This document shows, piece by piece, positions 35,536 to 58,109 of a stretch of 64,000 nt of DNA. The stretch is from Neoroseomonas lacus (GTDB taxonomy: Bacteria; Pseudomonadota; Alphaproteobacteria; Acetobacterales; Acetobacteraceae). How positions within the stretch are numbered: position 1 is the stretch's first letter; each line of letters starts with the position of its first letter. Under the pieces are notes generated by a model. That model had not been told where the DNA came from and ran no database searches. It saw only the letters and a list, made by a program, of their open reading frames with translations. The position numbers were made by a program, and so were the translations under genes. The stretch lies in NCBI RefSeq assembly GCF_014644535.1, contig NZ_BMKW01000002.1:335034-399033 (forward strand). The letters are read 5' to 3'.

Positions 35536-35612
35536 GTCCCCGTAGCTCAGCAGGATAGAGCACAGGATTCCTAATCCTGGGGCCGTGAGTTCGAATCTCG
35601 CCGGGGACACCA
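35536..35612 (+). tRNA. tRNA-Arg (anticodon CCU)
   Basis: The 77 bases fold as a complete tRNA: acceptor stem GTCCCCG (35536-35542) with CGGGGAC (35602-35608), D-arm with GCTC/GAGC, anticodon stem CAGGA/TCCTG with loop TTCCTAA, anticodon CCT at 35570-35572, T-arm with TTCGAAT, discriminator A and encoded CCA (35610-35612). It reads AGG codons. Its 3' half is repeated at 55695-55740, marking it as an integration site. Confidence 0.96.
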
Positions 35613-35613
35613 C
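35568..35613 (+). repeat. Left attachment repeat (attL) of the island
   Basis: These 46 bases run from the first base of the tRNA anticodon loop through the CCA end plus one base. They match 55695-55740 in 44 of 46 positions; the only differences are GG (35604-35605) against AA. Confidence 0.9.
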
Positions 35614-35941
35614 AGATTTCTTGGGTTTCAGCCCAACCGCCCGCCCCTGCCCTGAAGCACGCCGACCACTGCGGACTTATCTGCGAGCCCCTGCCCAGGG
35701 CGGGCGAATGACTGGCGCACCGCGAGGATCACCAGCGGTCAGGAACAGGACGAACAGCATAAGCTGTTGTTTTTGTTGAAACATTCAGCGACCGACCGCG
35801 CCGCGAAATACCTGCGGTAGCCAACCCGCCGGGAAGGACCCGCCACCACATCTAGGCCGAATGTCGCCCAGCACCATTTCCGGATCACTCGGTGCAATCC
35901 GAGCCTCAGCCTCGCTTACCGTGCGGAGCGCGACCGGAACG
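35614..35941. other. Gene-free left end of the island
   Basis: I see no convincing gene in these 328 bases. This is where an integrase would be expected in a tRNA-targeted island. There are AT-rich patches (for example 35755-35780, AAGCTGTTGTTTTTGTTGAA) not found in nearby core gaps. It is also the 3' flank of the minus-strand operon 35942-42966; no strong hairpin stands out. Confidence 0.6.
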
Positions 35942-36730
35942 TCAAATCGTTACCTCCCGTGTCGCTTCAGATATCTTCCAGGGCATGAGCTTGCGTTCGG
36001 CGATGCGCACCATCGCGTTTAGCGAAAACGCCAGCATCATGATGGCGATAAGGGCGGCGAAGACCCCGGCGGTGTCGAACTGACCGGAGGCACTGGCCAG
36101 TACGAAGCCGAGCCCCCGATTGGCGGCGATCAACTCGCCTACGATCGCGCCGATCAGCGCATAGGGGACCGAGATCCGCAGCCCGGCGAAGACCCAGGTA
36201 ATGGCCGATGGCAGCACGATTTTCCCGAGGACGTGACGCTCATTCGCTCCCATCAGGCGGACGATGGTCACGAGCTCCCGGCTGACGCTGCGCACGCCTG
36301 TGAAGGTATTGAGGAAGACGAGAAAGAACACCACAGTCGCGGTCAGCACGATTTTCATTGACATGCCGATACCGATCCACAGCACGAACAGCGGCGCGAG
36401 AGCAATCTTTGGCAGGCTGTAGAAGGCCAGGATGAACGGTTGCAGCAGGTCCGCCAGGAAGGTGCTCCGGCCCAGCAGCACCCCGGCCGCGATACCGATG
36501 GTGCCGCCGATGATGAAGCCCGCGAAGGCCTCGCTCGCGGTAACCGCGGCATGGAAGAACAGATCGCCGCTGACGATCAGCCGCCGAAAGGCAGCAAGGA
36601 TGGCGCTTGGCTTGCTGACGAAGAACTCGGCAATCAGCCGACCTGAGGCGAGCTCCCAGGCGACCAGGATCGCCATTGCCAGAATCAACCGGTAGACGAC
36701 CATGCGCGTTGGGGTGATCTCGGAGGTCAT
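35942..36730 (-). CDS. ABC transporter permease, SsuC/TauC-like
   Basis: This is the inner membrane channel of a nitrate/sulfonate/taurine-type importer. The 262 residues contain about six transmembrane helices and the EAA loop for contact with the ATPase: RELVTIVRLMGANERHVLGK then IVLPSAITWVFAGLRISVPY (~155-200). The ATG at 36730 (MTSEITPTRM) is preceded by GGGAGAG and overlaps the ATPase stop by four bases. It is the last gene of the operon that starts at 42966. Which compound is taken up cannot be told from the permease. Confidence 0.92.
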   Translation of the reverse strand: MTSEITPTRMVVYRLILAMAILVAWELASGRLIAEFFVSKPSAILAAFRRLIVSGDLFFHAAVTASEAFAGFIIGGTIGIAAGVLLGRSTFLADLLQPFILAFYSLPKIALAPLFVLWIGIGMSMKIVLTATVVFFLVFLNTFTGVRSVSRELVTIVRLMGANERHVLGKIVLPSAITWVFAGLRISVPYALIGAIVGELIAANRGLGFVLASASGQFDTAGVFAALIAIMMLAFSLNAMVRIAERKLMPWKISEATREVTI

Positions 36731-37521
36731 GAACTCTCTCCCCTCGTCTGGGTGAGCATCGGGGTGATCATGTCCCACAGCTCAGCCGCGAGCGCGACAT
36801 AGCGGCCATCGTGACGGAGCCGCAGCAGGTCGCGGTCGCGTGGCAGCGGCGAATCGAGGACCGCGCGGATCGTTCCCGGACGGCCGGAGAAGACGACACA
36901 GCGATCGCACAGCGCCGCCGCCTCATCGAGGTCATGCGTCACGAACAGCACGGTCTTGTTCAGCTGCCGGCTCAGCCGCAGAAGCTCGATCTGCATGTTC
37001 AGCCGCAGCTGCGCGTCGAGCGCCGCGAAGGGCTCGTCAAGCAGAAGGGTCTCGGGATCATAGGCCAGCAGCCGTGCCAGCGCCGCCCGCTTGCGCATGC
37101 CGCCCGAGAGTTGCGAAGGATAGGATTTCTCGAAGCCGGCCAGACCGACAAGCTCCATCAAGGCGGCCACCCTGTCGCGCATCTCGCCACGCGGCCGACC
37201 ATGGATCTCGAGCGGCACCTGGATGTTCGCCGCGACGGTACGCCAAGGCAGCAGGTGGTCGCTCTGCGTCATGTAGCCCGTGCGCAGATTGACGCCCGTC
37301 ACCGGGCCGCCGTCGTACTGCACGGTGCCGCTGCTTGGGGCAAACAGACCCGCCGTCATGTTCAGCAGGGTGGATTTTCCGCAGCCGGAAGGTCCAACTA
37401 ACGTCACGAACTCACCGCGCCGGACGTCGAGATCGATACTGCGCACCGCCTCAACAACCCGGTCGCCGACAGTGAAGGTCTTGCCGACGCCGCGGAACGC
37501 AATGAGCGCTTCCGCCGTCAT
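36727..37521 (-). CDS. ABC transporter ATP-binding protein, SsuB/TauB-like
   Basis: The 264-residue ATPase has Walker A FVTLVGPSGCGKSTLLNMTA (~38-57), Q-loop TGYMTQSDHLLPWRTVAANI (~81-100), signature SQLSGGMRKRAALARLL (~137-153), Walker B PETLLLDEPFAALDAQLRLN and the H-loop LFVTHDLDEAAALCDR. The form SGGMRKR and LPWRTV is typical of nitrate/sulfonate/taurine systems. The start overlaps the stop of the receptor gene (ATGA), and its own stop overlaps the permease start. Confidence 0.94.
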   Translation of the reverse strand: MTAEALIAFRGVGKTFTVGDRVVEAVRSIDLDVRRGEFVTLVGPSGCGKSTLLNMTAGLFAPSSGTVQYDGGPVTGVNLRTGYMTQSDHLLPWRTVAANIQVPLEIHGRPRGEMRDRVAALMELVGLAGFEKSYPSQLSGGMRKRAALARLLAYDPETLLLDEPFAALDAQLRLNMQIELLRLSRQLNKTVLFVTHDLDEAAALCDRCVVFSGRPGTIRAVLDSPLPRDRDLLRLRHDGRYVALAAELWDMITPMLTQTRGESS

Positions 37522-38558
37522 GTCTGCTGGAGCGCTGCCGCGGCGTAGTCGTTCGTCCACGCGGAGCGCGTCGCCTGGGCATCCAACGGCTCGGGCTGGG
37601 TCTCGTTCACGAAGGCGACGATACGGTCGATCATTGCCGGCTCGACCGCCACGCTGTGGGGATATGCAGGGATAGCGTTGCGCCAGACCTCGTCGAACAG
37701 GCCCTTGTCGGTCCGCGAATGCCAGCCGTTCCAGACCGCCTCCCGGGCGCGCATGCCTTCCTCGGCGTTGTGGACGGCCGTCATGGCGCGCTGTTGCGCG
37801 CGCAGGAACCGGATCGCGACCTCGCGATTGCGCGTCAACCAGGATTCCCGCGCAATGACGCCGATGTAGACGAATCCGTCGAGCTGCGGGACCTCGCCGC
37901 GGCCGGCCCAGATCAGTGGCTGCGCGCCGTGATTGCGCACCGCATCCTCCCCGGTCGGCGGCGGGATCACGAAGCCGTCGATGCGGCCGCGCGACATGGC
38001 CGCCAACATGTTCGCTCCGTCCGGGATGGCGGTGATGGTCAATTCGCGATCCGGGTTGATGCCGGCCTGCTTGCACAGGAAGCGCACGAGCTGGTCCGCT
38101 CCACCGCCCACGGAGGAGACGGCGAGTGTCATGCCGCGCAGCGCGCGCAACCGGTCCTGGTAGGTGCTCTGCGCGGTGATGCCCTGCTTGCGCGCCCAGT
38201 CGCCGGACATGGTGATGTTGTCGACGTATTGCACGACAGCCGGGGCGATCATCATCACGTCGCTGCCGCGTGCCCGTGCCCGGAACGCCGATGCCGGCGC
38301 GCCGATGTTGAACTGCGCGTCGCCGCCGGCGACCGCGGCCAGCGAGCGCGCGCCACCATTGGCCCGCACGATATCGACCTCGAGGTCCTGCGCGCCGAAG
38401 TAGCCGAGCGCCTGGGCAGTCAGCGTCACCCAGAACAGCATGTCGAAGCTGGACATCACGACGGTCAGCTTGTCCTTGGCGAAGGCGAGCCGGGCCGGCG
38501 CGCCGAGCCCCGCGGCCGTTCCAATACTCAATGCGCGGCGGGTGATGCGTGTCGTCAT
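37518..38558 (-). CDS. ABC transporter substrate-binding protein, NMT1/SsuA-like
   Basis: The 346-residue receptor begins with a Tat-like signal (TTRITRRALSIGTAAGLGAP, cleavage after LAFA). Family text: KLTVVMSSFDMLFWVTLTAQ, ALGYFGAQDLEVDIVRANGG, the switch region LAAVAGGDAQFNIGAPASAF (~73-92), LRGMTLAVSSVGGGADQLVR and MLAAMSRGRIDGFVIPPPTG. These are as in receptors for sulfonates, thiamine precursors (NMT1/THI5) or aromatic acids. The ligand is not predictable. The gene follows the HpcH aldolase by 13 bases. Confidence 0.9.
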   Translation of the reverse strand: MTTRITRRALSIGTAAGLGAPARLAFAKDKLTVVMSSFDMLFWVTLTAQALGYFGAQDLEVDIVRANGGARSLAAVAGGDAQFNIGAPASAFRARARGSDVMMIAPAVVQYVDNITMSGDWARKQGITAQSTYQDRLRALRGMTLAVSSVGGGADQLVRFLCKQAGINPDRELTITAIPDGANMLAAMSRGRIDGFVIPPPTGEDAVRNHGAQPLIWAGRGEVPQLDGFVYIGVIARESWLTRNREVAIRFLRAQQRAMTAVHNAEEGMRAREAVWNGWHSRTDKGLFDEVWRNAIPAYPHSVAVEPAMIDRIVAFVNETQPEPLDAQATRSAWTNDYAAAALQQT

Positions 38559-38571
38559 GTCCTGTCCTCCC

Positions 38572-39342
38572 TTACGCCTTCAGGCGCTTCATGGCGGCAG
38601 CGAAGCCCTCCTGGAGCACTTCGACATCGCTGGAATAGGCGAGCAGCAGCGCTCCGGCCTCCTTCCATTGCCGCACCTGCTCGGGGCTGAAGCACAGCAT
38701 GGCGCAGGTCTTGCTGTGCCGGCGTGCGGCATCGAGGATCAGGTTGCGCTTCTCGTCGATCATCCGCGCCTGGTCCGGCGTGCCGAAGACGCCCAGATCC
38801 TGCGCGAGGTCTGCCGGGCCCAAGGTCAGTGCGTCGATGCCGTCCATGGCAGCGATCGCATCGAGGTCTGCGAAGGCAGCCCCGGTCTCGAACATCACCG
38901 TGACATGGACCTGTTCGTTGGCGAAGGCACGGCGTTCGGCTACCGGCATGTTGCGATATTCGGTCATCGCGCTCAGGCCGCCATTGCCGCGCAGACCGCG
39001 CGGGGCGTAGCGCGACGCCGCCACGATTTCCCGCGCATGGGCGGCCGATTCCACCTGCGGGCAATGGATGTTCCAGACCCCGACATCGAGCAGCCGCGTG
39101 ATCCATTCCCGGTTGGCGCGCGGTGGGCGCACCGCGATCGGGAAGTCGAGCGCGCGGGCCATCGCCGCCATGTCGGCGATCGTCTCGATGGACATCGCCG
39201 CATGTTCCATGTCAATCCGAGCGAAATCGACGCCGGAAGCCTTCAGCAACATCAGCAAGGACGGGTTGCGCACCATGGTCACCCAGGTGCCGATCTGCAC
39301 TTCGCCGCGCGCAAGCGCCGCGCCCATTCGATTGGCTAGCAT
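38572..39342 (-). CDS. HpcH/HpaI-family aldolase (class II, pyruvate-type)
   Basis: The 256-residue enzyme should cleave 4-hydroxy-2-oxo acids (or a related aldol) to pyruvate and an aldehyde with a divalent metal. Visible: GEVQIGTWVTMVRNPSLLML, the base His in RIDMEHAAMSIETIADMAA (~45), substrate Arg in PIAVRPPRANREWITRLLDV (~70), metal ligand Glu in VTVMFETGAAFADLDAIAAM (~150) and Asp in DALTLGPADLAQDLG (~176). AGGAG lies six bases before the ATG. It sits between the Bug receptor gene and the ABC genes in the operon, which suggests that import and cleavage serve one substrate. Confidence 0.9.
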   Translation of the reverse strand: MLANRMGAALARGEVQIGTWVTMVRNPSLLMLLKASGVDFARIDMEHAAMSIETIADMAAMARALDFPIAVRPPRANREWITRLLDVGVWNIHCPQVESAAHAREIVAASRYAPRGLRGNGGLSAMTEYRNMPVAERRAFANEQVHVTVMFETGAAFADLDAIAAMDGIDALTLGPADLAQDLGVFGTPDQARMIDEKRNLILDAARRHSKTCAMLCFSPEQVRQWKEAGALLLAYSSDVEVLQEGFAAAMKRLKA

Positions 39343-39351
39343 GGTGTTCTC

Positions 39352-40317
39352 CTATTCCGCCCGGATATTCGCCCGGCGCGCGACCTCACCCCAGCGCCGC
39401 GTCTCGGCGGCGACGAAAGCGGCCACTTCGTCAGGCGTCAGGGCACGCGTGGTGATACCGAGCTCGGCGAAGCGCGAGGCCACCTCGGGCATCTGCAGCA
39501 CCGCGTTCACCTCCCGATTGAGTCGTTCGATGATGGGTCGCGGCGTTCCGGCCGGCGCAAACAGCACTCCCCACGTCAATGATTCGAACCCGGGCAGCGT
39601 CTCCGCGATGGTGGGTGCGTCCGGCGCGATGGCGACGCGCGCGGGGCTCGCCACACCAAGCAGCTTCATCGTTCCGGCGCGCACATGCGGCAGGCCGGAG
39701 GAGATGTTGTCGAAGGCCATCTGGACGTTACCCGCCATCAGCTCGGTCATGAGCTGACCGGAGGAGCGATAGGGCACATGCTCCGCCGTCGTGCCGGTGA
39801 GTTGGGTGAACAGCGCGCCGGCCAGATGGATCGAGGTTCCGACGCCGGAGGAGGCATAGTTGAACTGCCCCGGATGCGCGCGCATCTGAGCCACCAGCTC
39901 CGCTACGCTATTGGCCGTTGAGGAAGCCGGCACGAACAGCGCATTCGGCTGCAGGCTGATCAGCGCGATCGGTGCGAAGTCCCGCAGATTGTCATAGGGC
40001 ATGCGCGCATAGACCGCGTTATTGATCGCATGGCTGCTGATCGTGCCGACGCAGAGCGTGTAGCCGTCCGGCGGCGCCTTCGCACAGGCATCGCTGCCGA
40101 CATTGCCGCCGGCGCCGGCGCGGTTTTCCACCACCCAGGGCTGGCCCAGACGCTGGGCCAGCGGCGCGCCAACAATGCGCGCGGTGAGGTCGGTCGTGCC
40201 ACCAGCGCCGAAGGGCACGATGACGCGGATCGGCCGCGACGGCCAGGCGTCCTGCGCCGCGACAGAGGCGGTGACAGCCCACGCGGCCGTGAGACCGATC
40301 AGGATACGACGGAACAT
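39352..40317 (-). CDS. Bug-family (TctC-like) solute receptor 1
   Basis: This is a periplasmic binding protein of 321 residues, of the Bordetella uptake gene family, which binds carboxylates. It has a Sec signal (RILIGLTAAWAVTASVAAQ), the ligand loop RPIRVIVPFGAGGTTDLTAR (~29-48), VVENRAGAGGNVGSDACAKA, the water-bridge region NYASSGVGTSIHLAGALFTQ (~155-174) and EHVPYRSSGQLMTELMAGNV. True TctC works with the TctA and TctB membrane proteins; none is in the window. Spacing is 9 bases to the aldolase and 13 to the preceding receptor gene. Confidence 0.93.
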   Translation of the reverse strand: MFRRILIGLTAAWAVTASVAAQDAWPSRPIRVIVPFGAGGTTDLTARIVGAPLAQRLGQPWVVENRAGAGGNVGSDACAKAPPDGYTLCVGTISSHAINNAVYARMPYDNLRDFAPIALISLQPNALFVPASSTANSVAELVAQMRAHPGQFNYASSGVGTSIHLAGALFTQLTGTTAEHVPYRSSGQLMTELMAGNVQMAFDNISSGLPHVRAGTMKLLGVASPARVAIAPDAPTIAETLPGFESLTWGVLFAPAGTPRPIIERLNREVNAVLQMPEVASRFAELGITTRALTPDEVAAFVAAETRRWGEVARRANIRAE

Positions 40318-40330
40318 CGGCCAGCCTCCA

Positions 40331-41293
40331 TCAACGTGGCGGAGCCTCGCGCTCGGCGCCGATCGCCCGCGCGGTCTCCTCCCATTTGCTCACCTCGCTC
40401 GACATGAAGCGCGTCGCTTCCTCGGGTGAGCATGTCCAGATCGTCGTGCCGAGGCTGTCGTGCCTCGCCACGATGTCGGGGCGGTGCAGCAGCGCCATCG
40501 CATCCGACTGGATCCGCCCGATCACCTCGGGCGGCGTGCCGGCCGGGGCCATCAGGATGCCCCAGACGGTACTGGTGAAGCCGGGCAGGATGGTCTCGCC
40601 CACGGTCGGGATCTCGAGCGCCTGCGATGCGCGACCCGCACCGCACGTCGCGAGCATCTTCATGCGGCCCGCGCGCACATGCGGCAGCGTCGGCGTGACG
40701 GTGTCGAGCATCGCGTTCACGCGCCCGGCGATCAGGTCCGGATGACCCTGCGTGGACCCGCGATAGGGTACGCGCGTCATCTGCAGCCCCGCCTGGTGGC
40801 AGAGCAGTTCCATGCCGAGGGCCCCGAAGGTCGCGTAGCTCGTCTGGCCGGGCCTCGCCTTCACATACGCCACGAACTCCGAGGCGCTGTTCGGCGGGAA
40901 GTCGGGAGCGACGATCAGCGCCTGCGGCGTCTGCGACGTCGTCGTGATGTAGGCGATGTCCCGCATCGTGTCGTAGGGCGTGCGGTACAGTGCCGGGCTG
41001 ATGGAATGCGCCGTGCCGGCGAGGCACAGCGTTGTTCCGTCCGGCGTGGCGCGCGCCATCGCCTCGGCGCCGATCATGCCGTTGGCGCCGGGGCGGTTCT
41101 CGACCGTCACCGCCTGGCCCCAGATCGGGGTCAGATGTTCCGCAAGCAGGCGTGCGGTGATGTCCGATACCCCGCCGGGCGGATATGGGACGATGATGCG
41201 TACCGGCCGCATCGGGCGACCCGACTGGGCCCAGGCGGATCCGGCACCGAGTAGCAACGCTGGCGTGGCGAGCAGGCTTCGTCGTGCGACCAT
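40331..41293 (-). CDS. Bug-family (TctC-like) solute receptor 2
   Basis: The 320-residue receptor has signal ARRSLLATPALLLGAGSAWA with cleavage after AWAQ. The ligand loop is RPVRIIVPYPPGGVSDITAR, and the second loop YATFGALGMELLCHQAGL lacks the usual S-x-G-x-G-T, so ligand contacts differ from receptors 1 and 3. An unusual Glu/Arg-rich tail (ERE then APPR) ends the protein. It lies 14 bases after the RraA-type aldolase gene. Confidence 0.92.
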   Translation of the reverse strand: MVARRSLLATPALLLGAGSAWAQSGRPMRPVRIIVPYPPGGVSDITARLLAEHLTPIWGQAVTVENRPGANGMIGAEAMARATPDGTTLCLAGTAHSISPALYRTPYDTMRDIAYITTTSQTPQALIVAPDFPPNSASEFVAYVKARPGQTSYATFGALGMELLCHQAGLQMTRVPYRGSTQGHPDLIAGRVNAMLDTVTPTLPHVRAGRMKMLATCGAGRASQALEIPTVGETILPGFTSTVWGILMAPAGTPPEVIGRIQSDAMALLHRPDIVARHDSLGTTIWTCSPEEATRFMSSEVSKWEETARAIGAEREAPPR

Positions 41294-41307
41294 GTCCCGC
41301 TTCCTCC

Positions 41308-41967
41308 TCAGCCGCCTTTGGCGAGGCGCGCCGCCTCGCCAATACCCTTGCCGGCACGCACATGCTCGAAGATCCGCTGATCCATCGCCTCGGCCTTCTC
41401 GGCGCGCTCGAAGACTTCCATCAGTCGGGCGCGCGGGATGCAGACGACGCCGGTACTGTCACCGACCAGGATGTCGCCGGGATTCACCGTCACACCTTCC
41501 AGCTTGATCGGGACCTGCGTCACGGCGGTGCGCACGCGGGTGCGGCCGCTGACCGGCACGGCGTGCTTCACGAAGAGGTCCATGCCGCTGTCGATGATCT
41601 CGCCGAGGTCGCGCACGCCGCCATCGATCACGATGCCGGCGATGCCGCGCAGCTTCGCCGCCGTCGCCGCCGCCCCGCCCATCATCGAGACATGGGCGCC
41701 ACCGGCATCGATCGCGATCACCTCGCCCGGCGCGGCGTTGTCCACATAGGCGGGTATGTCGAATTCCTCCGGCGCAAAGGTGCCGAGCGCACCGACCGCG
41801 ACATTCACTGTGAAGGCCGGTCCGGCGAATTTGCGGTCCGCCGCGACGGGGCGGATCGGCGGCACCACCAACCCTTCGATGCCGAGCGCATCGAGTGCGC
41901 CGCCCACCGTGCTCGGACCGATCTCGCGCAGGCGGGCGCAGATGGCGGACATGTCAGTCGCGTTCAT
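41308..41967 (-). CDS. RraA-family class II aldolase (4-hydroxy-4-methyl-2-oxoglutarate/oxaloacetate type)
   Basis: The 219 residues match the RraA/dimethylmenaquinone methyltransferase-like family. Members with the catalytic pair Arg-Asp cleave 4-carboxy-4-hydroxy-2-oxoadipate or 4-hydroxy-4-methyl-2-oxoglutarate to pyruvate; true RNase E regulators lack it. Here the pair is present in GIVIDGGVRDLGEIIDSG (~115-116). Also seen: PSTVGGALDALGIEGLV, DNAAPGEVIAIDAGGAHVSM and NPGDILVGDSTGVVCIPRAR. It is therefore more likely an aldolase or oxaloacetate decarboxylase than a ribonuclease inhibitor. It lies between two Bug receptor genes in the operon. Confidence 0.88.
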   Translation of the reverse strand: MNATDMSAICARLREIGPSTVGGALDALGIEGLVVPPIRPVAADRKFAGPAFTVNVAVGALGTFAPEEFDIPAYVDNAAPGEVIAIDAGGAHVSMMGGAAATAAKLRGIAGIVIDGGVRDLGEIIDSGMDLFVKHAVPVSGRTRVRTAVTQVPIKLEGVTVNPGDILVGDSTGVVCIPRARLMEVFERAEKAEAMDQRIFEHVRAGKGIGEAARLAKGG

Positions 41968-41988
41968 GCTGTATCGTTTCCTTGGCGG

Positions 41989-42966
41989 TCACTGAGGTTC
42001 GATGCGCGCCAGCCGCACCAGGTCGCCCCAGCGCCTGGTCTCGCTGCGTATGAAGTCGGCATAGGCTTCAGGGGAGTCGGAGAGGGACACCTCGAAGCCG
42101 AGCGCTGCGTAGGTGCGCCGCACCTCCTCCGTGTCGTAGCGGGCGCGCAGCGCATCGAAGAGGCGACGGATGATTGCCAGATCGGTGCCGGCCGGCGCGG
42201 CCATGCCCTGCCAGGGCACAAGCTGGAAGCCGGGCAGCCCGGCCTCGGTCAGCGTCGGCAGGTCGGGGGCGAGCGGCGTGCGTGCTGCCGCGGTGACGCC
42301 GAGACCGATCGCGCCGCCCGAACGGATATGCGGCAGCGCATTGGCCGGGTCGGCAAAGGTGAAGGAGAGCTGCCCGCCCAGCAGGTCTGTCACCTGCGGC
42401 GGGATCGAGCGGTACTGCACGCCGAGCGCTTCGAACTGTCCGTCATGCGTCAGCATCACCGCCGCGATCTGCGACGAGCTGCCTGAATAGCCGTAGGTCA
42501 GCTTGCCGGGATTGGCGCGGCCATACGCCACCAGTTGCTGCACGTTGCGCACCGGCAGGGAGGGATGGCTGAGCAGCACCAGCGGCCCAGTCGCGAGGTT
42601 AGACACCGGCGCGAAATCCGCCACCGGATCGTATGGCAGGTTGCGGAAAAGCGCAGTGTTCGCCGCGTGGGTCGAATTGGTGACGACGAGCAGCGTGTAG
42701 CCATCGGGCCGCGACCGGGCGACGGCCTGGGCACCGATGATGCCGCCGGCGCCGGTGCGATTCTCGACGACGACCTGGCCGCCGATCGCCTCGGAAATCG
42801 CGCGCGCCGCCTGACGGCCGACCACGTCCGTGGAACTGCCCGCGGCGAAAGGCACGATCAGGGTGATGGGTCGGCTGGGATAGGCTTGCGCCGTCGCGAT
42901 GCGGGGCAAGCTCAGCAGCGTGGCAGCACCCCCCAGCAACGCCCGGCGGGACGGTCGAATGGACAT
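41989..42966 (-). CDS. Bug-family (TctC-like) solute receptor 3, first gene of the eight-gene operon
   Basis: The 325-residue receptor carries a Tat-like signal (PSRRALLGGAATLLSLPRIA). The ligand loop is RPITLIVPFAAGSSTDVVGR, second loop TYGYSGSSSQIAAVMLTHDG, then PPQVTDLLGGQLSFTFADPA. As first gene of 42966-35942 (gaps of 9-21 bases or four-base overlaps throughout) it is preceded by the 124-bp divergent promoter region shared with the LysR gene. Confidence 0.92.
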   Translation of the reverse strand: MSIRPSRRALLGGAATLLSLPRIATAQAYPSRPITLIVPFAAGSSTDVVGRQAARAISEAIGGQVVVENRTGAGGIIGAQAVARSRPDGYTLLVVTNSTHAANTALFRNLPYDPVADFAPVSNLATGPLVLLSHPSLPVRNVQQLVAYGRANPGKLTYGYSGSSSQIAAVMLTHDGQFEALGVQYRSIPPQVTDLLGGQLSFTFADPANALPHIRSGGAIGLGVTAAARTPLAPDLPTLTEAGLPGFQLVPWQGMAAPAGTDLAIIRRLFDALRARYDTEEVRRTYAALGFEVSLSDSPEAYADFIRSETRRWGDLVRLARIEPQ

Positions 42967-43059
42967 CGGCGTTTCCTCGCCGCCCGATCTGAGAACCCTG
43001 TTCCGGATCCTTCATGGCGGCGACGTCATCTAAGGAGCAGCTCGACTGTTCGACAAATC

Positions 43060-43081
43060 GGAAGATTCAAAGCATTCTTCC
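43060..43081. promoter_or_regulatory. Candidate LysR operator in the divergent promoter
   Basis: GGAAGA-N10-TCTTCC is an exact dyad ending nine bases before the LysR-gene start, in the gap shared with the Bug receptor 3 operon. The overlapping TTCGACAAATCGGAA (43050-43064) also has dyad character. LysR-type regulators bind such interrupted dyads between divergent genes; which one is bound is inference. Confidence 0.5.
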
Positions 43082-43090
43082 ATTTCGCTT

Positions 43091-47146: not shown

Positions 47147-47151
47147 GCGCG

Positions 47152-48132: not shown

Positions 48133-48203
48133 TGAACGTCTCCTGCGCCGTTGTTGGAGCCCCCCCCTGCGGCGCTGGCGCTGCGTCCGGGAGCGATGTA
48201 AAC

Positions 48204-48218
48204 TTCCGCATTCCGGAA
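48204..48218. promoter_or_regulatory. Candidate IclR operator
   Basis: TTCCG-CATTC-CGGAA is a perfect dyad in the 87-bp gap between the divergent Bug receptor 4 and IclR genes, ending one base before the IclR ATG; a further half-site CCGGAAG follows at 48232-48238. IclR-type regulators commonly bind short dyads of this kind over their own promoter. Assignment is by position. Confidence 0.5.
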
Positions 48219-48219
48219 G

Positions 48220-49062
48220 ATGATCCGCTTACCGGAAGAAGCCTGCAAGGAGAACACACCCCTGTCAACGCGCTTTGGCGGGCTTGAGCCCGACCTCGTC
48301 CAGTCTTTGGCAAAGGGCCTTGCCGCCATCGAGGCCTTCGATGTCGAGCATCCGCGCATGACGTTGAGCGAAGTGGCGCGTCGCATCGGCGTGACGCCCG
48401 GCTCAGCGCAGCGGATCCTGCGTACCCTCGACCGGCTCGGCTATGTCGGGTGCGCGGACGGGCACTACTCGCTGCGGCCGCGCACGCTTCAGCTTGGCTA
48501 TTCCTACCTCGCCTCGCTGCCGGCGGTGGCGATCGCCCAGCCGTTACTGACGGCAACCACCGGCGCGACCGGGGAGACGGCCTATGTGGCGGTGCTGGAC
48601 GGGATGGATGTGGTCTATGTTGCGCGGGCCACGGGTCGGCATCTGCGGCGCGACTATATGTCGGTCGGTACGCGCATGCCTGCGCACGCAACCTCGCCCG
48701 GCAAGGTACTGCTCGCGGGAATGCCGCATGGGGATCGGCGCGCTATGCTGGCGGGGCGGAAACTGCAGCGTCTGACCCCCTGTACCGTCACGGATGTCGA
48801 GGAACTGCTGCGGCAGATCGCGATGGTGGCCGAACGTGGCTACGCGCTGAACGACCAGGAGACCATCATGGGGCTGCGCTCCCTCGCCGTACCGGTGACG
48901 GTGGGCGGACGCGTCGTCGCCGCGCTCGGCACCAGCACCGAGGTTTCCCGGAATTCAGTGTCTGAGATGGAGGCACATTTCCTGCCGCGCCTGCGCGAGA
49001 CGGCCGTGTCTCTCGCGCAGGCGCTGAAGGCTCGCGACGCCGACAGCCTGCAAGGACGGTGA
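48220..49062 (+). CDS. IclR-family transcriptional regulator
   Basis: The 280-residue protein has the N-terminal winged helix (VQSLAKGLAAIEAFDVEHPR, MTLSEVARRIGVTPGSAQRI, LRTLDRLGYVGCADGHYSLR, ~27-90) and the IclR effector domain (AYVAVLDGMDVVYVARATGR, SVGTRMPAHATSPGKVLLAG, ERGYALNDQETIMGLRSLAV, ALGTSTEVSRNSV). By form it is close to the PcaR/PobR group that controls aromatic acid degradation. The ATG at 48220 touches the candidate operator; AAGGAG at 48247-48252 lacks a normal start codon downstream, leaving the true start somewhat open. It should control the divergent operon 48132-44281. Confidence 0.93.
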   Translation: MIRLPEEACKENTPLSTRFGGLEPDLVQSLAKGLAAIEAFDVEHPRMTLSEVARRIGVTPGSAQRILRTLDRLGYVGCADGHYSLRPRTLQLGYSYLASLPAVAIAQPLLTATTGATGETAYVAVLDGMDVVYVARATGRHLRRDYMSVGTRMPAHATSPGKVLLAGMPHGDRRAMLAGRKLQRLTPCTVTDVEELLRQIAMVAERGYALNDQETIMGLRSLAVPVTVGGRVVAALGTSTEVSRNSVSEMEAHFLPRLRETAVSLAQALKARDADSLQGR

Positions 49063-49120
49063 TGCGCGGGCACGCGAGCGAAGACCGACGCGCCGCGTCC
49101 CGGCTTCTGTCGTGCCGCGC

Positions 49121-50041
49121 TCAGGCGTGCGAGTACATGGCCCGACCGGGCACGTCCATTGGCACCTGCATCACCGACCCGGTATGCGCCTCCAGGATGA
49201 ACAGCGTGCGGCGGTCTGGGCCGCCGTACGCAACGTTGGTGACGTACATGCCGGTGCAGGACCGAATGCGCAGGAGGGGTTCTCCATTGGGCGAGAACTG
49301 CCAGACGATGCCGTTGCGTGCGTGCACGACGATCAGGTTGCCGGCCTCGTCCAGCGCCATGCCGTCCGGCCCGAGCCCGCCGCTCAATTGGATGAACAAT
49401 TCGATCTGACGCGACGTGTAACCGCCCGCGACAGGGAAGCGCCACACGGCGTTCCCCCGCGTCACGCCGAGCAGCAGATGCGTTCCTGCCTGATCCAGCA
49501 CCAGGCCGTTGGGCGTTGGTACGTTGTCCACCAGCAATTCCAGGATCGCGCCGTCCGGCGAGGCGCGAAACACGCGGCCGGTCGGATCGCCGAGATGGCT
49601 CCGGCCGGGATCCGTGACATAGAGCGATCCATCCGGTCCGAAGAACAGATCGTTGAGGCCGCGGAAACGCTCGAAGTTCGGCCGCGTGGCGAAGGGGCGA
49701 ACGACGCGCTCCACCGGGTCCATCACCATGATCCCATGCTCGCGATCGGCCAGGAAGATGCGCCCGTCCCGGTGGATCTTTAAGCCATTCGGCTCGCCAT
49801 CATACTGCGCGGCCAGCGTCCAGCATCGGTCACGATCGATGCGGAAGATGCGGCCATGCGGGATGTCGACGCACCAGAGCTGCCCCTCACGATCGAAGGC
49901 GGGACCCTCGAGGAAGGAATGTACGGGGCCCATCGCCGCGGGGCGCGTCCGTGCCCAAAGGCTCGGCGGCCCCTTCCAGTGCAGCGCGTCGGGCAGGGCT
50001 GTGTAGAGCTCGGCACGGACTTCGCGCGGTGGGGCATACAT
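49121..50041 (-). CDS. SMP-30/gluconolactonase family protein 1
   Basis: The 306-residue cytoplasmic six-bladed beta-propeller hydrolyses sugar or other lactones using one divalent metal. Expected metal ligands are visible: Glu in VHSFLEGPAFDREG (~39), Asn in VPTPNGLVLDQAG (~182) and Asp in GLGPDGMALDEAGN (~235); LYVTDPGRSHLGDPTGRVF is another blade signature. GGAGGAAG precedes the ATG. A TTGA-N4-TCAA site lies 70 bases upstream. It is about the same length and layout as the second copy at 51319, but clearly diverged. Confidence 0.9.
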   Translation of the reverse strand: MYAPPREVRAELYTALPDALHWKGPPSLWARTRPAAMGPVHSFLEGPAFDREGQLWCVDIPHGRIFRIDRDRCWTLAAQYDGEPNGLKIHRDGRIFLADREHGIMVMDPVERVVRPFATRPNFERFRGLNDLFFGPDGSLYVTDPGRSHLGDPTGRVFRASPDGAILELLVDNVPTPNGLVLDQAGTHLLLGVTRGNAVWRFPVAGGYTSRQIELFIQLSGGLGPDGMALDEAGNLIVVHARNGIVWQFSPNGEPLLRIRSCTGMYVTNVAYGGPDRRTLFILEAHTGSVMQVPMDVPGRAMYSHA

Positions 50042-50110
50042 GCGGTTGCTTCCTCCGATGACGGCGAGCCTTGGGCGGTGGGTTCGCCGCCCTGAGGGTA
50101 TTGAATTAGA

Positions 50111-50122
50111 TTGATCAGTCAA
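50111..50122. promoter_or_regulatory. TTGA-N4-TCAA operator, copy 1
   Basis: TTGATCAGTCAA, 70 bases upstream of SMP-30 protein 1 (minus strand). It is one of four sites with the same architecture in the MarR module. Confidence 0.65.
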
Positions 50123-50286
50123 CTTCATGCCGATCATTGGCACGGTGCTGCGACGATGCCAGCAGTCCGCAATCGCTGCGATCTCGATATCGCCGTGAAG
50201 CGCGCATATAATGAAACGGCGGGTGATCCGTGCTCGAAAGCCTCGGACAGCCACCGCCAGCAGACCACAACCTGTCGCGATATGTG

Positions 50287-50298
50287 TTGACACATCAA
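50287..50298. promoter_or_regulatory. TTGA-N4-TCAA operator, copy 2
   Basis: TTGACACATCAA, extended to GTTGA-CACA-TCAAC (50286-50299), 84 bases upstream of Bug receptor 5. Confidence 0.65.
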
Positions 50299-50381
50299 CG
50301 ACACGATGATGTCGTTCCCGGGTCCAGGATAATCCCCCCGCGCTGACAATGGCGCGGAACGTCGCGTGCAGGAGGAAACAT

Positions 50382-51332
50382 ATGATCCGCATCGTCAGCG
50401 CGGTCGCTGCGTGTTGTCTCGTCGCCACCTCGGCCCGAGCGGAGTTTCCCGACCGCCCGATCCGCATCATCGTCCCCACCGCACCCGGCGGCAGTTCCGA
50501 TATCGTCACGCGCATCATCGCGGAGGCGGCGACACCGTTCCTGGGTCAGCGAGTGGTGGTGGAAAGCCGGCCTGGTGGGAACGGGAATGTCGGCATGGAT
50601 GCCGTCGCGAAATCGGCGCCGGATGGCTACACGCTCGGCAACTGTGCGATCGGCACCTGCACGGTGAACCCGTTCCTCTACCGCATGCCCTACGACATCC
50701 GCACCGAGATCCAGCCGGTGTTCTGGGCGGTCAGCCTGACCAACGCGCTAGCCGTCAACGCCCGCCTGCCGGTGCGCAACGTGGAGGAGTTCATCGCCCT
50801 CGCACGCACGCGGACGCTCTTCTACGGCTCTTCCGGCATCGGCAGCCTGCATCACATGTCGGCGGAACTGCTGGGACCGCAGCTCGGCGTGCGCTTTGAA
50901 CACGTGCCCTATCGCGGCGCCGGCCCGGCGATGCAGGATCTCATGGGCGGCCGCATCGACTTCATGATCGAGAACATCTCGACCGTGGTGGGTCCAGCGC
51001 GCGACGGCGCCATCCGCCCGCTCGCCGTCACTGGCCCGACGCGCAGCGAGGCCGCACCCGACCTGCCGAGCTTCACGGAACTCGGCTATCGCGACATGGT
51101 GGTGCTCGCCTGGTTCGGCTTCGTCGGTCCGGCCCATATGCCGCCGGCGGTCGTCGCCACGCTGAACAGCGCCTTCAACCGGGCCCTGCAGACCGAAATG
51201 GTGCAGACGCGCTTCCGCGAAATGAGTCTGGTGGCGGAGGGCGGCTCCCCCGAGCGCTTCCAGCAGCATATCGATAGCGAGCTGGCGCGCTGGGAGAGGA
51301 TCGTCCGCGAGCGCGGCATTAGGGCGGAGTGA
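50382..51332 (+). CDS. Bug-family (TctC-like) solute receptor 5
   Basis: The 316-residue receptor has signal MIRIVSAVAACCLVATSARA, ligand loop RPIRIIVPTAPGGSSDIVTR, VVESRPGGNGNVGMDAVAKS, second loop FYGSSGIGSLHHMSAELLGP and EHVPYRGAGPAMQDLMGGRI. The strong AGGAGG before the ATG at 50382 decides the start over a GTG/ATG upstream at 50349. Its 3' end overlaps the convergent second SMP-30 gene by 14 bases. Confidence 0.93.
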   Translation: MIRIVSAVAACCLVATSARAEFPDRPIRIIVPTAPGGSSDIVTRIIAEAATPFLGQRVVVESRPGGNGNVGMDAVAKSAPDGYTLGNCAIGTCTVNPFLYRMPYDIRTEIQPVFWAVSLTNALAVNARLPVRNVEEFIALARTRTLFYGSSGIGSLHHMSAELLGPQLGVRFEHVPYRGAGPAMQDLMGGRIDFMIENISTVVGPARDGAIRPLAVTGPTRSEAAPDLPSFTELGYRDMVVLAWFGFVGPAHMPPAVVATLNSAFNRALQTEMVQTRFREMSLVAEGGSPERFQQHIDSELARWERIVRERGIRAE

Positions 51333-52257
51333 CGGGATCCGCCCCAAGGAAATCCAGGTCGGCGCGGTACACCGCGCCTTCCTGCGCCTCCAGGATATAG
51401 AGCGCGCCGCCATCCGGGCTGAAGGCGCAGGCGGTGGTCCAGGCGCCGCCCGGCGTCCTGATGCGGCAGAGCAAATCGCCCAGTGCATCGAAAACATAGG
51501 CGCGCCCGGCCTGCGACTGCGCCACCGCAACGCGGCCCCTGTTGTCGATGGACAGCCCGTCCGGCCCGTTGCCGCCGGACAGATGCGCGAAGGTGCTCAC
51601 CATCGGGAAGACCGGATCGGGCGCATCCGCGAGCAGCCGCCAGATGCAGTTGGCGCGCGTCACCGAGACGAAGACCTGCCGTCCGCTCGCGTCCAGCGCC
51701 ACGCTGTTGGGATAGGGGATGTTAGCGAGCACGATCTCGGGGCCGGCCGCCCCGCGCCGCAGCCGCATCAACCGCCCCGTCGGATCGGATGGGCTGCTGC
51801 GACCGGGGTCGGTGAACCAGAGATCGCCGTTCGGCGCCACAGCGACGTCGCTCAAAGCGCGAAAATTCTCGAAGTTCACGCCGCTACAGATCACGTCCAT
51901 GGTGCCGCGCGCGGGGTCGAGCCGCATCAGCCCACCGCGGCGATCAGTCACCACCAGGCGGCCATCGCCGAGATGCGCCAGGCAATGTGGGTTGCCGTCA
52001 TAGGCATGTGCGACGGTCCAGCCGCCGTCGGGGTCGATGCAGAAGATGCGGCCATAAGGAATATCGACCAGCCAGAGATTGCCATCGGCATCGAAGGACG
52101 GGCCTTCGAGGAAGGAATGCATGCTCAGGCCGGGGCGATTCATTCGCGCCCATTCGCTGGGCTCGCCGGTATGGCGCAGTGCGTCGGGTAGGCGGGCCCA
52201 ACACGCCGCCTCCACGTCGAAGGGCTGCTCCAGGCGGGTGACGCGCTGGCCCGTCAT
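51319..52257 (-). CDS. SMP-30/gluconolactonase family protein 2
   Basis: The 312-residue beta-propeller lactonase has likely metal ligands Glu in MHSFLEGPSFDADGN (~50), Asn in IPYPNSVALDASG (~193) and Asp in GNGPDGLSIDNRG (~245). Blade text LWFTDPGRSSPSDPTGRLM corresponds to that of protein 1. It is probably transcribed with the HpcH aldolase upstream (19 bases between stop of the aldolase and its start). Two diverged lactonases in one module suggest two related lactones or stereoisomers. Confidence 0.9.
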   Translation of the reverse strand: MTGQRVTRLEQPFDVEAACWARLPDALRHTGEPSEWARMNRPGLSMHSFLEGPSFDADGNLWLVDIPYGRIFCIDPDGGWTVAHAYDGNPHCLAHLGDGRLVVTDRRGGLMRLDPARGTMDVICSGVNFENFRALSDVAVAPNGDLWFTDPGRSSPSDPTGRLMRLRRGAAGPEIVLANIPYPNSVALDASGRQVFVSVTRANCIWRLLADAPDPVFPMVSTFAHLSGGNGPDGLSIDNRGRVAVAQSQAGRAYVFDALGDLLCRIRTPGGAWTTACAFSPDGGALYILEAQEGAVYRADLDFLGADPVTPP

Positions 52258-52276
52258 CGCCCGACGCTCCGTACCG

Positions 52277-53056
52277 TCACGGCCTGACCTCGGGGTGCAA
52301 CTCCTTCACCACCGCCTGCAGCCGCGTCGCCAGGATGTAGACGGCGTTGAGGCACAGCGCTGTGGCGCCGGCGGCACGGATCGCGGGGATGTCGGCGGCG
52401 GTCTGAATCGTTGTCGCCAGCGCCGGCCCTTCAGCGGCCAGCACCTTGCGGTGGATGGTGTCCAGCGCCGCCACCACGTCTGGATGCTTCGGATTGCCGA
52501 TGCGGCCGAGCGAGGCCGACAGGTCGGACGGCCCTACGAAGATCGCATCCACGCCCGGCACGCGGGCGATTGCATCTACTTCCGGGATCGTCGCCGCATC
52601 CTCAATCATCAGTACGATGCTGGTCTGCTGGGCCTGGGACGAGAGATAGTCGGCCGGCCGGACCATGCCGTGCATGGCGGCGCGCGTTCGGCTGCTGATG
52701 CCGCGCTCGCCGAGTGGCGAGTAGAGAGCGTGCTTCACGATCTCCCGCGCCTGGTCGGCATTGCGGACATGCGGCACCTGCACGCCGGCCGCGCCCATCT
52801 CCAACACGCCGAGGATGTGGAACTCCGATGCGGAAGGCACGCGCACCAGCGCTGGGATGCCGGCGACATCCGCGGCGCGGATCATGTGCACCATTGTCTC
52901 AGGTGAGATGGTGCCATGCTCCGCATCGATGATCACGTAATCGAAGCCGGCGTAGCCGATCATCTCCACCATGTCAGGCGAGGGCATGCTGCAGAAGCAG
53001 GCGAACATTGGCTCGCGGGCGCGCAGTTTGGCCTTCAGCGTGGCGCGCTGGCTCAT
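52277..53056 (-). CDS. HpcH/HpaI-family aldolase 2
   Basis: The 259-residue class II aldolase, second in the island, has MIGYAGFDYVIIDAEHGTIS with the base His (~47), Arg in IPALVRVPSASEFHILGVLE (~72), metal ligands Glu in IVLMIEDAATIPEVDAIARV (~148) and Asp in DAIFVGPSDLSASLGRIGNP (~174). It differs in length and in many positions from the copy at 38572, so the two are old paralogues with possibly different substrates. Upstream (94 bases from the start) lies a TTGA-N4-TCAA site. Start at the ATG 53056 (MSQRATLKAKL). Confidence 0.9.
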   Translation of the reverse strand: MSQRATLKAKLRAREPMFACFCSMPSPDMVEMIGYAGFDYVIIDAEHGTISPETMVHMIRAADVAGIPALVRVPSASEFHILGVLEMGAAGVQVPHVRNADQAREIVKHALYSPLGERGISSRTRAAMHGMVRPADYLSSQAQQTSIVLMIEDAATIPEVDAIARVPGVDAIFVGPSDLSASLGRIGNPKHPDVVAALDTIHRKVLAAEGPALATTIQTAADIPAIRAAGATALCLNAVYILATRLQAVVKELHPEVRP

Positions 53057-53149
53057 GGCGTTGCGCTCGGAGGGGCGGTGATCACTCGCGGCTGGCGTCG
53101 AAGCATTCCTTGATCCTCCCGAAAGGACCGGAACGCTAGGTCCATACCA

Positions 53150-53161
53150 TTGACTCGTCAA
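53150..53161. promoter_or_regulatory. TTGA-N4-TCAA operator, copy 3
   Basis: TTGACTCGTCAA, extended to ATTGA-CTCG-TCAAT (53149-53162), 94 bases upstream of HpcH aldolase 2 (minus strand) and in the gap it shares with the dioxygenase gene. Confidence 0.65.
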
Positions 53162-53240
53162 TCATATGCAGCTTGGCATTGATCGTTCTCTAGCCAACTA
53201 TCTTCTTCCCTGCTTGCTCTCCCATCGAGCCACATGTTAG

Positions 53241-53252
53241 TTGATCGATCAC
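53241..53252. promoter_or_regulatory. TTGA-N4-TCA(C) operator, copy 4
   Basis: TTGATCGATCAC contains the perfect palindrome TGATCGATCA (53242-53251) and lies 40 bases upstream of the TauD-like gene. It differs from the other three only in the last base. Confidence 0.55.
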
Positions 53253-53291
53253 CTAATTTGGCCGTTCGGCCAATCCTCGGGAGGAAGAAGC

Positions 53292-54185
53292 ATGAGTGCC
53301 ACTGACATCGCCATCCGCGTCACGCCGCTGCATCCCCTCTTTGGTGCGGAAGTTGCTGGCGTCGACCTCGCCCGCCCGCTGCCCGACGCGGTGTTCGAGG
53401 ACATTCGGCAGGCCTTCAACGAGCACCAGGTGCTGGTGTTTCGCGGCCAGGCCCTGGACGACGAGAGCCAGATCGCCTTCAGCCGCCGCTTCGGCCCGCT
53501 GGAGAAGACTGAGCCGCACGCCGCCAACAACTACACGCCGTCACACGTCGCGGTGATCACCAACGTGGACGAGAACGGCCAGATCATGCAGCTGACCGAC
53601 AAGCGCGTGATCCTGCGAACCCGCAACGAGCAGTGGCACAGCGACAGCTCCTACAAGCCGGTCTCGGCCATGGCCTCGTTGCTGTCGGGCCGTGAGGTGC
53701 CGCCGATCGAGGGTGACACCGAATTCGCGACCATGCGCGGCGCCTACGAAGCGTTGCCGGAAGCCCGGCGCCGGCAGATCGACGACCTGATCGGGATCCA
53801 CCAAGTGGAGACCTCAATGAAGAGTGTCGATGCGGACATGTTCAAGCGCGAGGCGAAGCGCCCGCTCGCACCGGTGCAACATCCGTTGGTGCGTCGCAAT
53901 CCGGTGAACGGGCGCAAGTCACTGTTCGTTGGCGCGCATGCTGGCGGCATTGTCGGCATGCCGGAGGAGGAGGCACGCGCCCTGCTGGCCGAACTGATGG
54001 CGCACTGCACACAGCCGCAATTCGTCCACACCCATCATTGGCGGCAGGGCGACCTCGTCATGTGGGACAACCGCTGCACGCTGCATCGCGCGACGACCTT
54101 CGACAAGGCAAAGTACCGACGCACCCTGCATCGCACGACGGTCGCCGGTCTGCCCGAGGCCGAAGGGGCGCAGACCGCGGGCTAG
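53292..54185 (+). CDS. TauD/TfdA-family Fe(II)/2-oxoglutarate dioxygenase
   Basis: The 297-residue oxygenase hydroxylates its substrate while decarboxylating 2-oxoglutarate. Iron ligands are visible: His-x-Asp in RNEQWHSDSSYKPVSAMASL (~117-119) and the distal His in WDNRCTLHRATTFD (~262), with the 2-oxoglutarate Arg in YRRTLHRTTVAG (~277). The N-terminal text (TPLHPLFGAEVAGVDLARPL, VLVFRGQALDDESQIAFSRR) is typical of TfdA-like enzymes that open ether, ester or sulfonate compounds. GGGAGGAAG precedes the ATG. Its last four bases overlap the end of the convergent MarR gene. Confidence 0.93.
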   Translation: MSATDIAIRVTPLHPLFGAEVAGVDLARPLPDAVFEDIRQAFNEHQVLVFRGQALDDESQIAFSRRFGPLEKTEPHAANNYTPSHVAVITNVDENGQIMQLTDKRVILRTRNEQWHSDSSYKPVSAMASLLSGREVPPIEGDTEFATMRGAYEALPEARRRQIDDLIGIHQVETSMKSVDADMFKREAKRPLAPVQHPLVRRNPVNGRKSLFVGAHAGGIVGMPEEEARALLAELMAHCTQPQFVHTHHWRQGDLVMWDNRCTLHRATTFDKAKYRRTLHRTTVAGLPEAEGAQTAG

Positions 54186-54703
54186 CCCTTCCGGCGGCGG
54201 GGCTCGGCCGGCGGCTGCCGGTCCTCCAACTCCGCCGCCTCATCCGCCCGCAGCGATTCCGACGCGACGAAAAGGCGGTCGAGCATTTCGTTCAGCTGCT
54301 TGCGCTCGCGTGCCGTGATGCAGCCCAGCACACGAGCCTGCCGCGACTGGCGCCGCTGGGCGAGTTTCTCCACCACATCCTGCCCGACCGCGGTGAGGGT
54401 CCAAACGCGCTTGCGGTGGTCCTTGGAGTCGACGGTGTCGGCAACGTAGCCGCGCTTGACCAGCCGTTGCATCACCCGGCTGACGAGTGCCTTGTCCATG
54501 GCCGCAATCTCGACCACCTCGCTCGACGCCAGCGGCGCATTGTCCGAGATCACCCACAGTACGCGCATCTCGGGCACGCCGAGAGCGAAGCGCGGCACGT
54601 AGTAGTTCGTGGAGGCCTTGAACAGCGAACGGGCCAGCCGATGAATCCGGTATAGCGTCGAATCCTGAATCTTGTGACGTCCGCCTGTGGAAGTCTCGCT
54701 CAT
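54182..54703 (-). CDS. MarR-family transcriptional regulator
   Basis: The 173-residue protein has the MarR winged helix: YVPRFALGVPEMRVLWVISD, SSEVVEIAAMDKALVSRVMQ (recognition helix region) and RLVKRGYVADTVDSKDHRKR (wing with D-x-x-D-x-R), ~37-105, between dimerisation helices. It ends in a charged Glu/Arg/Pro-rich tail. Located at the end of the third island module, convergent with the dioxygenase gene, it is the likely reader of the TTGA-N4-TCAA sites; MarR proteins often bind such TTG/CAA dyads. No copy of the site is seen before its own start. Confidence 0.9.
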   Translation of the reverse strand: MSETSTGGRHKIQDSTLYRIHRLARSLFKASTNYYVPRFALGVPEMRVLWVISDNAPLASSEVVEIAAMDKALVSRVMQRLVKRGYVADTVDSKDHRKRVWTLTAVGQDVVEKLAQRRQSRQARVLGCITARERKQLNEMLDRLFVASESLRADEAAELEDRQPPAEPRRRKG

Positions 54704-54918
54704 GGCCTCTCCGAACGGCGCGTCCCAGCAGCCGCGTTTGCGTTTCCAAGCCGGGGGTGGATCAGCGCGAGGGTACCCGGATCCCGATTGCAAGGCTTGC
54801 TGGCCGTTATCGCTGATGAATCGGCGGCTTTCCAGCACAGAGCGGGCATTCAGTGATCGCGTCGGAGCGGAACGGGCGCGATGCGAGTCTCCACCCTTTC
54901 GAACCCCTCCTTGGCTAA

Positions 54919-55446
54919 GAGCCCATCCGGGAAGAAGTTGAATCCGTTGAACTGGATGCAATTCGCTGTCCCCCTGGACGATTCGCGGTAGCTGACGGAT
55001 GGGATGGACAGCGCAACATCGGCGCGGCGGATCGGCGGGGGGTTGCGCTACCCCTCTGACCTGACCGACGACGTATGGGCGTTGGTGGCGCCGCTGATCC
55101 GCCCTGCGAAGCGCGGTGGCAGGCGGCGCACCGTGGATGTGCGCGGGGTGCTGAACGCGGTATTCTACGTGCTCACCAGCGGCTGCCAGTGGCAGGCGCT
55201 GCCCACGGATCTGCCACCGAAATGCACGGTGTGGGATTGCTTCTCCCGATGGGAATGGGAAGGTACCATCGAGCGCATCAATCATGTTCTCGCTGTCGCG
55301 GTGCGCGAGCAGGCCGGGCGCGAAGCCAGCCCGACGACAGCGATCATCGACAGCCAGACGGCGAAGACGGCGCAAAAGCGGCTCTACGGTGGACCCGTCC
55401 GCCTACGATGTGGGCAAGCATGAATCAGAACTACCCGGATGGGCTC
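54919..55446 (+). mobile_element. IS5-family (IS427-like) element, internally deleted
   Basis: Perfect 13-bp inverted ends GAGCCCATCCGGG (54919-54931) and CCCGGATGGGCTC (55434-55446) enclose 528 bases holding the first half of a transposase gene. Intact relatives are about 800-900 bases, so the second half including the rest of the catalytic region has been deleted while both ends remain. The immediate flanks (TAA, TCA) do not form an identical target duplication. It sits 250 bases inside the right end of the island. Confidence 0.8.
55004..55420 (+). pseudogene. Truncated IS5-type transposase
   Basis: From the ATG at 55004 the frame reads RYPSDLTDDVWALVAPLIRP, KRGGRRRTVDVRGVLNAVFY, SGCQWQALPTDLPPKCTVWD and ends with ASPTTAIIDSQTAKTAQKR, the N-terminal half of IS427-type transposases with the first catalytic Asp (I-I-D-S-Q). 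The continuation is in the +1 frame after CAAAAG (PSAYDVGKHE), which may be the natural frameshift site of this IS group or a mutation. The sequence then runs into the right inverted repeat, so the rest is lost. Confidence 0.8.
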
Positions 55447-55694
55447 TCAGATCTTTGAGTGAAGATCTTCAGTGGTATGGTGACACAGCCAGATCCCTGT
55501 TTCCGCCCCGACGCACCCTCGCCACGAGCTTAGGATTTCCTCCAAGCCAGCGCGACGACGTCGCGCGCGGACTCATCCGGAAGGGGGCATTGTGAGGGTG
55601 CATGGCGATAACCAGCGACACTATGCCGGCCAACCACTTGATTTCAAAGACTATGGTCGACGGGTGTCGGAACGTGACGGCGGCTAGCAGTCTG

Positions 55695-55740
55695 TTCCTA
55701 ATCCTGGGGCCGTGAGTTCGAATCTCGCCGAAGACACCAC
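55695..55740 (+). repeat. Right attachment repeat (attR): 3' fragment of tRNA-Arg(CCU)
   Basis: The 46 bases are a displaced tRNA 3' half (anticodon loop to CCA plus one base). Compared with 35568-35613 they have AA instead of GG at 55731-55732, which would break the acceptor stem; no 5' half precedes it, so it is not a functional tRNA. The 245 bases from here to hppA contain no gene I can support. Confidence 0.9.

Positions 55741-55985: not shown

Positions 55986-58109
<2,124 letters not shown>

Follow-up and report, generated by a model that had tools for sequence, protein, structure and literature searches.

Two kinds of described system lie close to the locus analysed here: genomic islands that sit in tRNA genes, and decayed mobile elements that have retained their attachment sites. 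In the portion of the Islander report available to us (PMC4383910), three crossover subsites are distinguished, the anticodon loop among them, and 2,083 islands fall into the anticodon-loop class. The excerpted text on CIMEs (PMC7563491) defines them as decayed ICEs or IMEs and states that they move by accretion and mobilization. Literature searches on tRNA-Arg CCU genomic islands or integrases in alphaproteobacteria, and on a group I intron at the tRNA-Arg anticodon as an integration site, found no reports; a search on Roseomonas genomic islands and integrases found none on this subject, judged by its listing. The window, a 64,000-nucleotide stretch of Neoroseomonas lacus DNA, holds a block of genes at 35613–55694 which we consider, with a probability of roughly two in three, to be a decayed and probably composite tRNA-associated island of known kind, outwardly resembling a cis-mobilizable element.

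An intact tRNA-Arg(CCU) gene, detected by ARAGORN and Rfam, lies at 35536–35612 on the plus strand and would be the attachment site. Sequence comparison places the near copy of a 46-bp repeat within it, on the same strand, at 35568–35613, from two bases before the anticodon in the anticodon loop to one base beyond the encoded CCA at the 3′ end. The far copy, at 55695–55740 (plus strand), begins 20,127 bp downstream of the near one, has the same orientation, and is identical to it at 44 of 46 positions: 36 exact bases are followed by two mismatches and 8 exact bases. An exact match of 36 bases is far longer than chance would produce. A search of G000, the genome to which the window belongs (6.4 Mb, 73 contigs), with the 77-bp tRNA gene gave six matches, namely the gene itself, the far copy (96%) and four others at 75–81%, and the far copy is the sole high-identity partial copy of the tRNA in the 6.4-Mb genome. 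The locus thus combines an intact tRNA gene with a displaced fragment of its 3′ part in the same orientation, just as the preliminary description had it.

Three congeneric genomes carry copies of the tRNA 3′ part with 98–100% identity, at 23 kb from the tRNA in G021, at 11 kb in G017, and on a contig other than that of the tRNA in G006. On the inner side of each copy there is an inward-reading gene for a protein that combines Arm-DNA-bind_3 and Phage_integrase domains; its start lies ~180 bp from the copy in G021, ~180 bp in G017 and ~157 bp in G006 (the ORF starts are mechanical calls). The far copies begin at tRNA position 32 in G021, 28 in G017 and 32 in G006, vs. 33 in the window. Since the three integrases are mutually only 25–27% identical, highly divergent integrases have picked the same site. 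The most plausible reading of the 46-bp repeat is a footprint left by an integrase that is missing, and this attachment-site reading is well supported by the sequence comparison, because in all three congeners the far tRNA copy has a tyrosine integrase ~160–180 bp inside it; the tyrosine-integrase footprint suggested earlier for this tRNA 3′ part gains support from the same genomes. Further partial copies of the tRNA 3′ part were seen at G028:C291:1356-1401 and G028:C343:3334-3375 (93% and 95%) and may mark more islands.

Pfam scans of 20 ORFs between the repeats turned up no integrase. The three sister integrases, used as tblastn queries, revealed no remnant between the repeats or near either end of the block and matched only two recombinases to the left of the tRNA. 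By both searches the island ends lack an integrase, as had been claimed, and the integrase gene that Islander expects between the tRNA and its fragment is absent. The two tyrosine recombinases of the window (14564–15499 and 29196–30128) have an N-terminal SAM-like domain, and we take them to be XerC/XerD. A recombinase also lies ~6–10 kb upstream of the same tRNA in G003, G004, G014 and G016, which fits a core gene; this count is among the matches listed, which include 5 of the 12 Phage_integrase matches in G000 and do not extend to G020–G034.

The 244 bp directly inside the far repeat (55451–55694) correspond to the slot occupied by the integrase in the sister islands; they hold no recognised gene, and tblastn detected no integrase remnant there. 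Next to them, in the same slot, lies an IS5-family element at ~54915–55450 on the plus strand, identified with NF033580 and by alignment to L150, L151 and L152. Its right end is defined by a 34-base match to L150 alone and its inverted ends were read by eye. The IS remnant reported earlier at the right end is thus real, but it has kept both ends and lost its middle: the NF033580 profile covers positions 1–111 of 258, ~0.4 kb of the transposase is deleted, and the copy in G004 (L150) shows the window's element to be short of ~0.41 kb in the middle. It is possible that the IS5-family element removed the integrase.

The cargo reads as three modules with separate regulators (LysR, IclR and MarR). 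All 20 ORFs scanned could be named by Pfam as transport, catabolic or regulatory, which upholds the view that no other kind of gene lies between the repeats; the gene calls themselves are mechanical. At the left end, 35613–35941 contains no recognised gene and has no match in the other loci compared, and the slightly larger interval 35605–35945 is likewise devoid of homology to any of them. Module 1 (35942–44032, Pfam) encodes, all on the minus strand, an ABC permease, an ABC ATPase, an NMT1-like binding protein, an HpcH/HpaI-type aldolase, two TctC proteins, an RraA-like aldolase and a further TctC, followed by a LysR regulator on the plus strand. Module 2 (44281–49062, Pfam) consists of a CoA-transferase III, a ChsH2-type OB/zinc-ribbon protein, a thiolase-like protein and a TctC (all minus), with an IclR regulator (plus). 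Module 3 (49121–54703, from Pfam matches and listed start codons) comprises an SGL/NHL protein (minus), a TctC (plus), a second SGL/NHL protein (minus), an HpcH/HpaI-type aldolase (minus), a TauD-type dioxygenase (plus) and a MarR regulator (minus), the start of which is uncertain. As to substrates, none of ten cargo proteins reached an NCBIfam equivalog cut-off. A partial paralogue of module 3 exists in the same genome at G000:C22:3670-5351 (L153, L204), with the series aldolase-SGL-TctC at 48%, 69% and 54–56%.

The composition of the block departs weakly from that of its contig, C2. The GC content is 66.5% vs. a mean of 68.9% (sd 1.6) for 232 other overlapping 20-kb segments of C2, 26 of which are as low. 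The dinucleotide distance is 36.5 vs. 28.8 (sd 11.8), with 61/232 segments as high, and the tetranucleotide distance is 0.121 vs. 0.093, with 34/232 as high.

The distribution of the cargo was followed with one marker per module in 98 relatives, 34 of the same genus (G001–G034) and 64 others. The limits were strict: E 1e-80 for the thiolase (module 2), 1e-70 for the NMT1-like protein (module 1) and 1e-60 for the aldolase (module 3), with at most 18, 21 and 24 candidates scored per genome, respectively, and not every candidate in every genome. Within these limits the thiolase matches in one of the 98 relatives (G039), and the NMT1-like protein and the aldolase in 0/98 each; none of the three has a close match in the 34 congeners, as expected of an island missing from close relatives. 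The block is likewise found in 0/17 congener tRNA loci within the stretches compared. In a wider family sample, with the best five candidates per genome scored, the NMT1-like protein matches in one of 396 genomes, G332. This genome has module 1 complete, with all nine genes in identical order, in two copies (L212 on C5 and L214 on C30), which are 90% DNA-identical to each other. Their proteins are 77–90% identical to those of the window for eight genes and 59–60% for LysR. All five genes of module 2 occur in Humitalea rosea and Roseomonas sp. AR75 (56–80%), and at L098 and L100 the module stands without modules 1 and 3. A Bradyrhizobiaceae MAG has the thiolase, OB protein and CoA-transferase together, with an IclR gene 4 kb off and a TctC only 36% identical, and in a MAG labelled Bordetella parapertussis just the three module 2 enzymes match (52–64%). 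No second module was found beside module 1 or module 2 homologues elsewhere, in flanks of up to ~10–20 kb. Module 3 as a unit was not found elsewhere in searches that scored five or, for the aldolase marker, at most 24 candidates per genome. On plasmids, the module 2 marker was met only at 41%, in two Paracoccus plasmids, and the module 1 marker had no match at E 1e-60.

These data bear on the way in which the block was put together. The preliminary description had the whole 20-kb block come once, as a single integrase-bearing island that lost just its integrase. We regard this as unlikely: one repeat pair does bracket all three modules, no intact module boundary element was seen between them, and the markers of all three are jointly missing from the 34 congeners, but module 1 stands apart from the other two in both of its G332 copies, as does module 2 in other genera, namely in Humitalea rosea and Roseomonas sp. 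AR75 (flanks to ~10–20 kb in each case). Stepwise gathering is probably the better account, because modules 1 and 2 each occur elsewhere without the others; the argument comes from these two modules, not from module 3.

The flanks of the block differ in what they retain of the usual gene order. On the left, pip precedes the tRNA in 17/17 congener tRNA loci and adjoins it in all 20 same-genus loci among 29 relative tRNA loci tested; in the nine loci of other genera, eight are without pip and one (G037) has a partial 81% match ~1 kb upstream. The right flank of the tRNA varies. One type is common to G010, G021, G022 and G031, and in G031 it starts 98 bp past the tRNA; a second is common to G001, G003, G004, G011 and G016, and other genomes have neither or a short piece only. 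In G019 (L082), proteins recognised by eye as ribosomal lie directly to the right of the tRNA; in G012 (L080), the contig stops with the final tRNA base.

To the right of the block, hppA (55986–58109, plus strand, Pfam) encodes an H+-pyrophosphatase. The earlier statement that core genes resume at hppA holds insofar as hppA is a core gene, but it is not a usual neighbour of tRNA-Arg(CCU). None of the 17 congener loci (right flanks of 0 to ~18 kb) has hppA, or an island gene above 46% protein identity, beside the tRNA, and the proposed search for pip, tRNA-Arg(CCU) and hppA in direct succession gave a negative answer in these stretches. That series was also rejected as an ancestral order: in the three genomes listed with both on one contig, tRNA and hppA are ~792 kb (G010), 200 kb (G022) and 378 kb (G004) apart. 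In 28/28 loci compared within the genus, the gene directly upstream of hppA is ppa (PF00719); 6 of the 34 congeners yielded no such locus. At this position ppa is missing in the window's genome and in G058 of another genus. In G000, ppa lies on contig C20 (26803–27330), away from the contig ends, so the ppa-hppA pair is split. The flank of the G010/G021/G022/G031 type is found in G000 on contig C17 from 63652, again away from the contig ends, and its first 5–7 kb have no close match in G000.

At ~55882, 141 bp past the far repeat, the sequence becomes homologous to the region upstream of hppA, and the rearrangement junction lies in these 141 bp (55741–55881, by sequence comparison) or at their edge. 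Given that ppa and the usual right flank of the tRNA are on other contigs, the right edge of the island borders on a rearrangement, in a genome that is heavily shuffled throughout. This rearrangement was considered as something special to the island and rejected as such: C2 compared with 332 kb of G022 breaks up into many scattered blocks in both orientations, and the junction is one breakpoint among many. In a 73-contig draft an assembly error is possible, and a single misjoin at the hppA junction is unlikely in view of three altered internal junctions. An alternative is that the 46-bp repeat is itself a by-product of chromosomal rearrangement or duplication rather than of integration. The rearranged right junction and the scrambled state of C2 relative to G022 speak for it, but the boundaries of the repeat nearly equal those in G021, G017 and G006, where an integrase lies shortly inside the far copy, and we hold the idea to be extremely improbable.

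Taken in order, the favoured account of a decayed composite island would run as follows. A mobile element would have inserted by site-specific recombination at the part of tRNA-Arg(CCU) from the anticodon loop to the 3′ end; its own copy would have rebuilt the tRNA, and the displaced original would have become the far repeat. Loss of the integrase, which by analogy with the sister islands would have lain close to the inner side of the far repeat, would have followed, and an IS5-type element may have inserted in its slot and then itself decayed. Three separately regulated uptake-and-catabolism modules would have been gathered at the hot spot, probably stepwise, and hppA would afterwards have come to lie beside the far end through a chromosomal rearrangement.

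In six genomes of other genera (G056, G042, G047, G054, G043 and G051), tRNA-Arg(CCU) matches in two halves that lie within 300 bp, with the break at the anticodon loop. The inserts of the first four (L205, L206, L207 and L208) all match the Rfam group I intron at a relaxed limit, with 35.8–47.9 bits, and none reaches the gathering score of 50 bits. Separately, 5′ halves of tRNA-Arg(CCU) were noticed in G016 and G048. A more general proposal would make the anticodon-loop site a genus-wide dock for several highly divergent integrases, any of which could still mobilise the block as its passenger; in sister genera the docking sequence would be broken by a group I intron at the same point. We think this quite unlikely. 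That intron and attachment site overlap in sister genera is a testable side question. The locus also illustrates that carbon-uptake modules can collect in one species at a tRNA hot spot where a sister island carries defence-type genes, and that the observation that core genes resume at a given point can mislead, since the apparent right boundary is here a later rearrangement.

The sister islands of G021, G017 and G006 are among the closest known systems. They sit in the same tRNA as the block, and the boundaries of their repeats are almost identical to those of the block, but they retain an integrase, which the block lacks. Six proteins of the G021 island scanned with Pfam include Mrr, TIR, deaminase and Prim-Pol types, in contrast to the catabolic cargo in the window; overall, genes of integrase, Mrr, SRAP, DNA polymerase III alpha, TIR, deaminase and Prim-Pol type were noted in this 23-kb island (L083, L084). 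Compared with the Islander tRNA islands that have an anticodon-loop (“A”) crossover, as they appear in the available portion of PMC4383910, the block is alike in its intact tRNA, its displaced 3′ fragment of the same orientation and a repeat starting in the anticodon loop; the integrase gene which that text requires is missing, so that the block falls outside Islander's strict definition. No phage structural, relaxase or conjugation gene was matched by Pfam in the 20 ORFs, which sets the block apart from a prophage, ICE or IME. One could still see in it a cis- or trans-mobilizable element, with both attachment sites kept and movable by an outside integrase. In favour are the presence of both repeats, the use of the tRNA-Arg(CCU) site by at least three divergent integrases of the genus, and the streptococcal CIMEs of like anatomy described in the excerpted text of PMC7563491; against this stand the two mismatches in the far repeat and the same lack of relaxase, conjugation and phage genes, which leaves conjugative descent putative, and such mobility seems very improbable. 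The decayed island favoured here differs from CIMEs, as that text presents them, in that no trace of conjugative descent was found in its 20 ORFs by Pfam, and it agrees with them in retaining attachment sites, in lacking genes for recombination and mobilization, and in consisting of cargo genes only.
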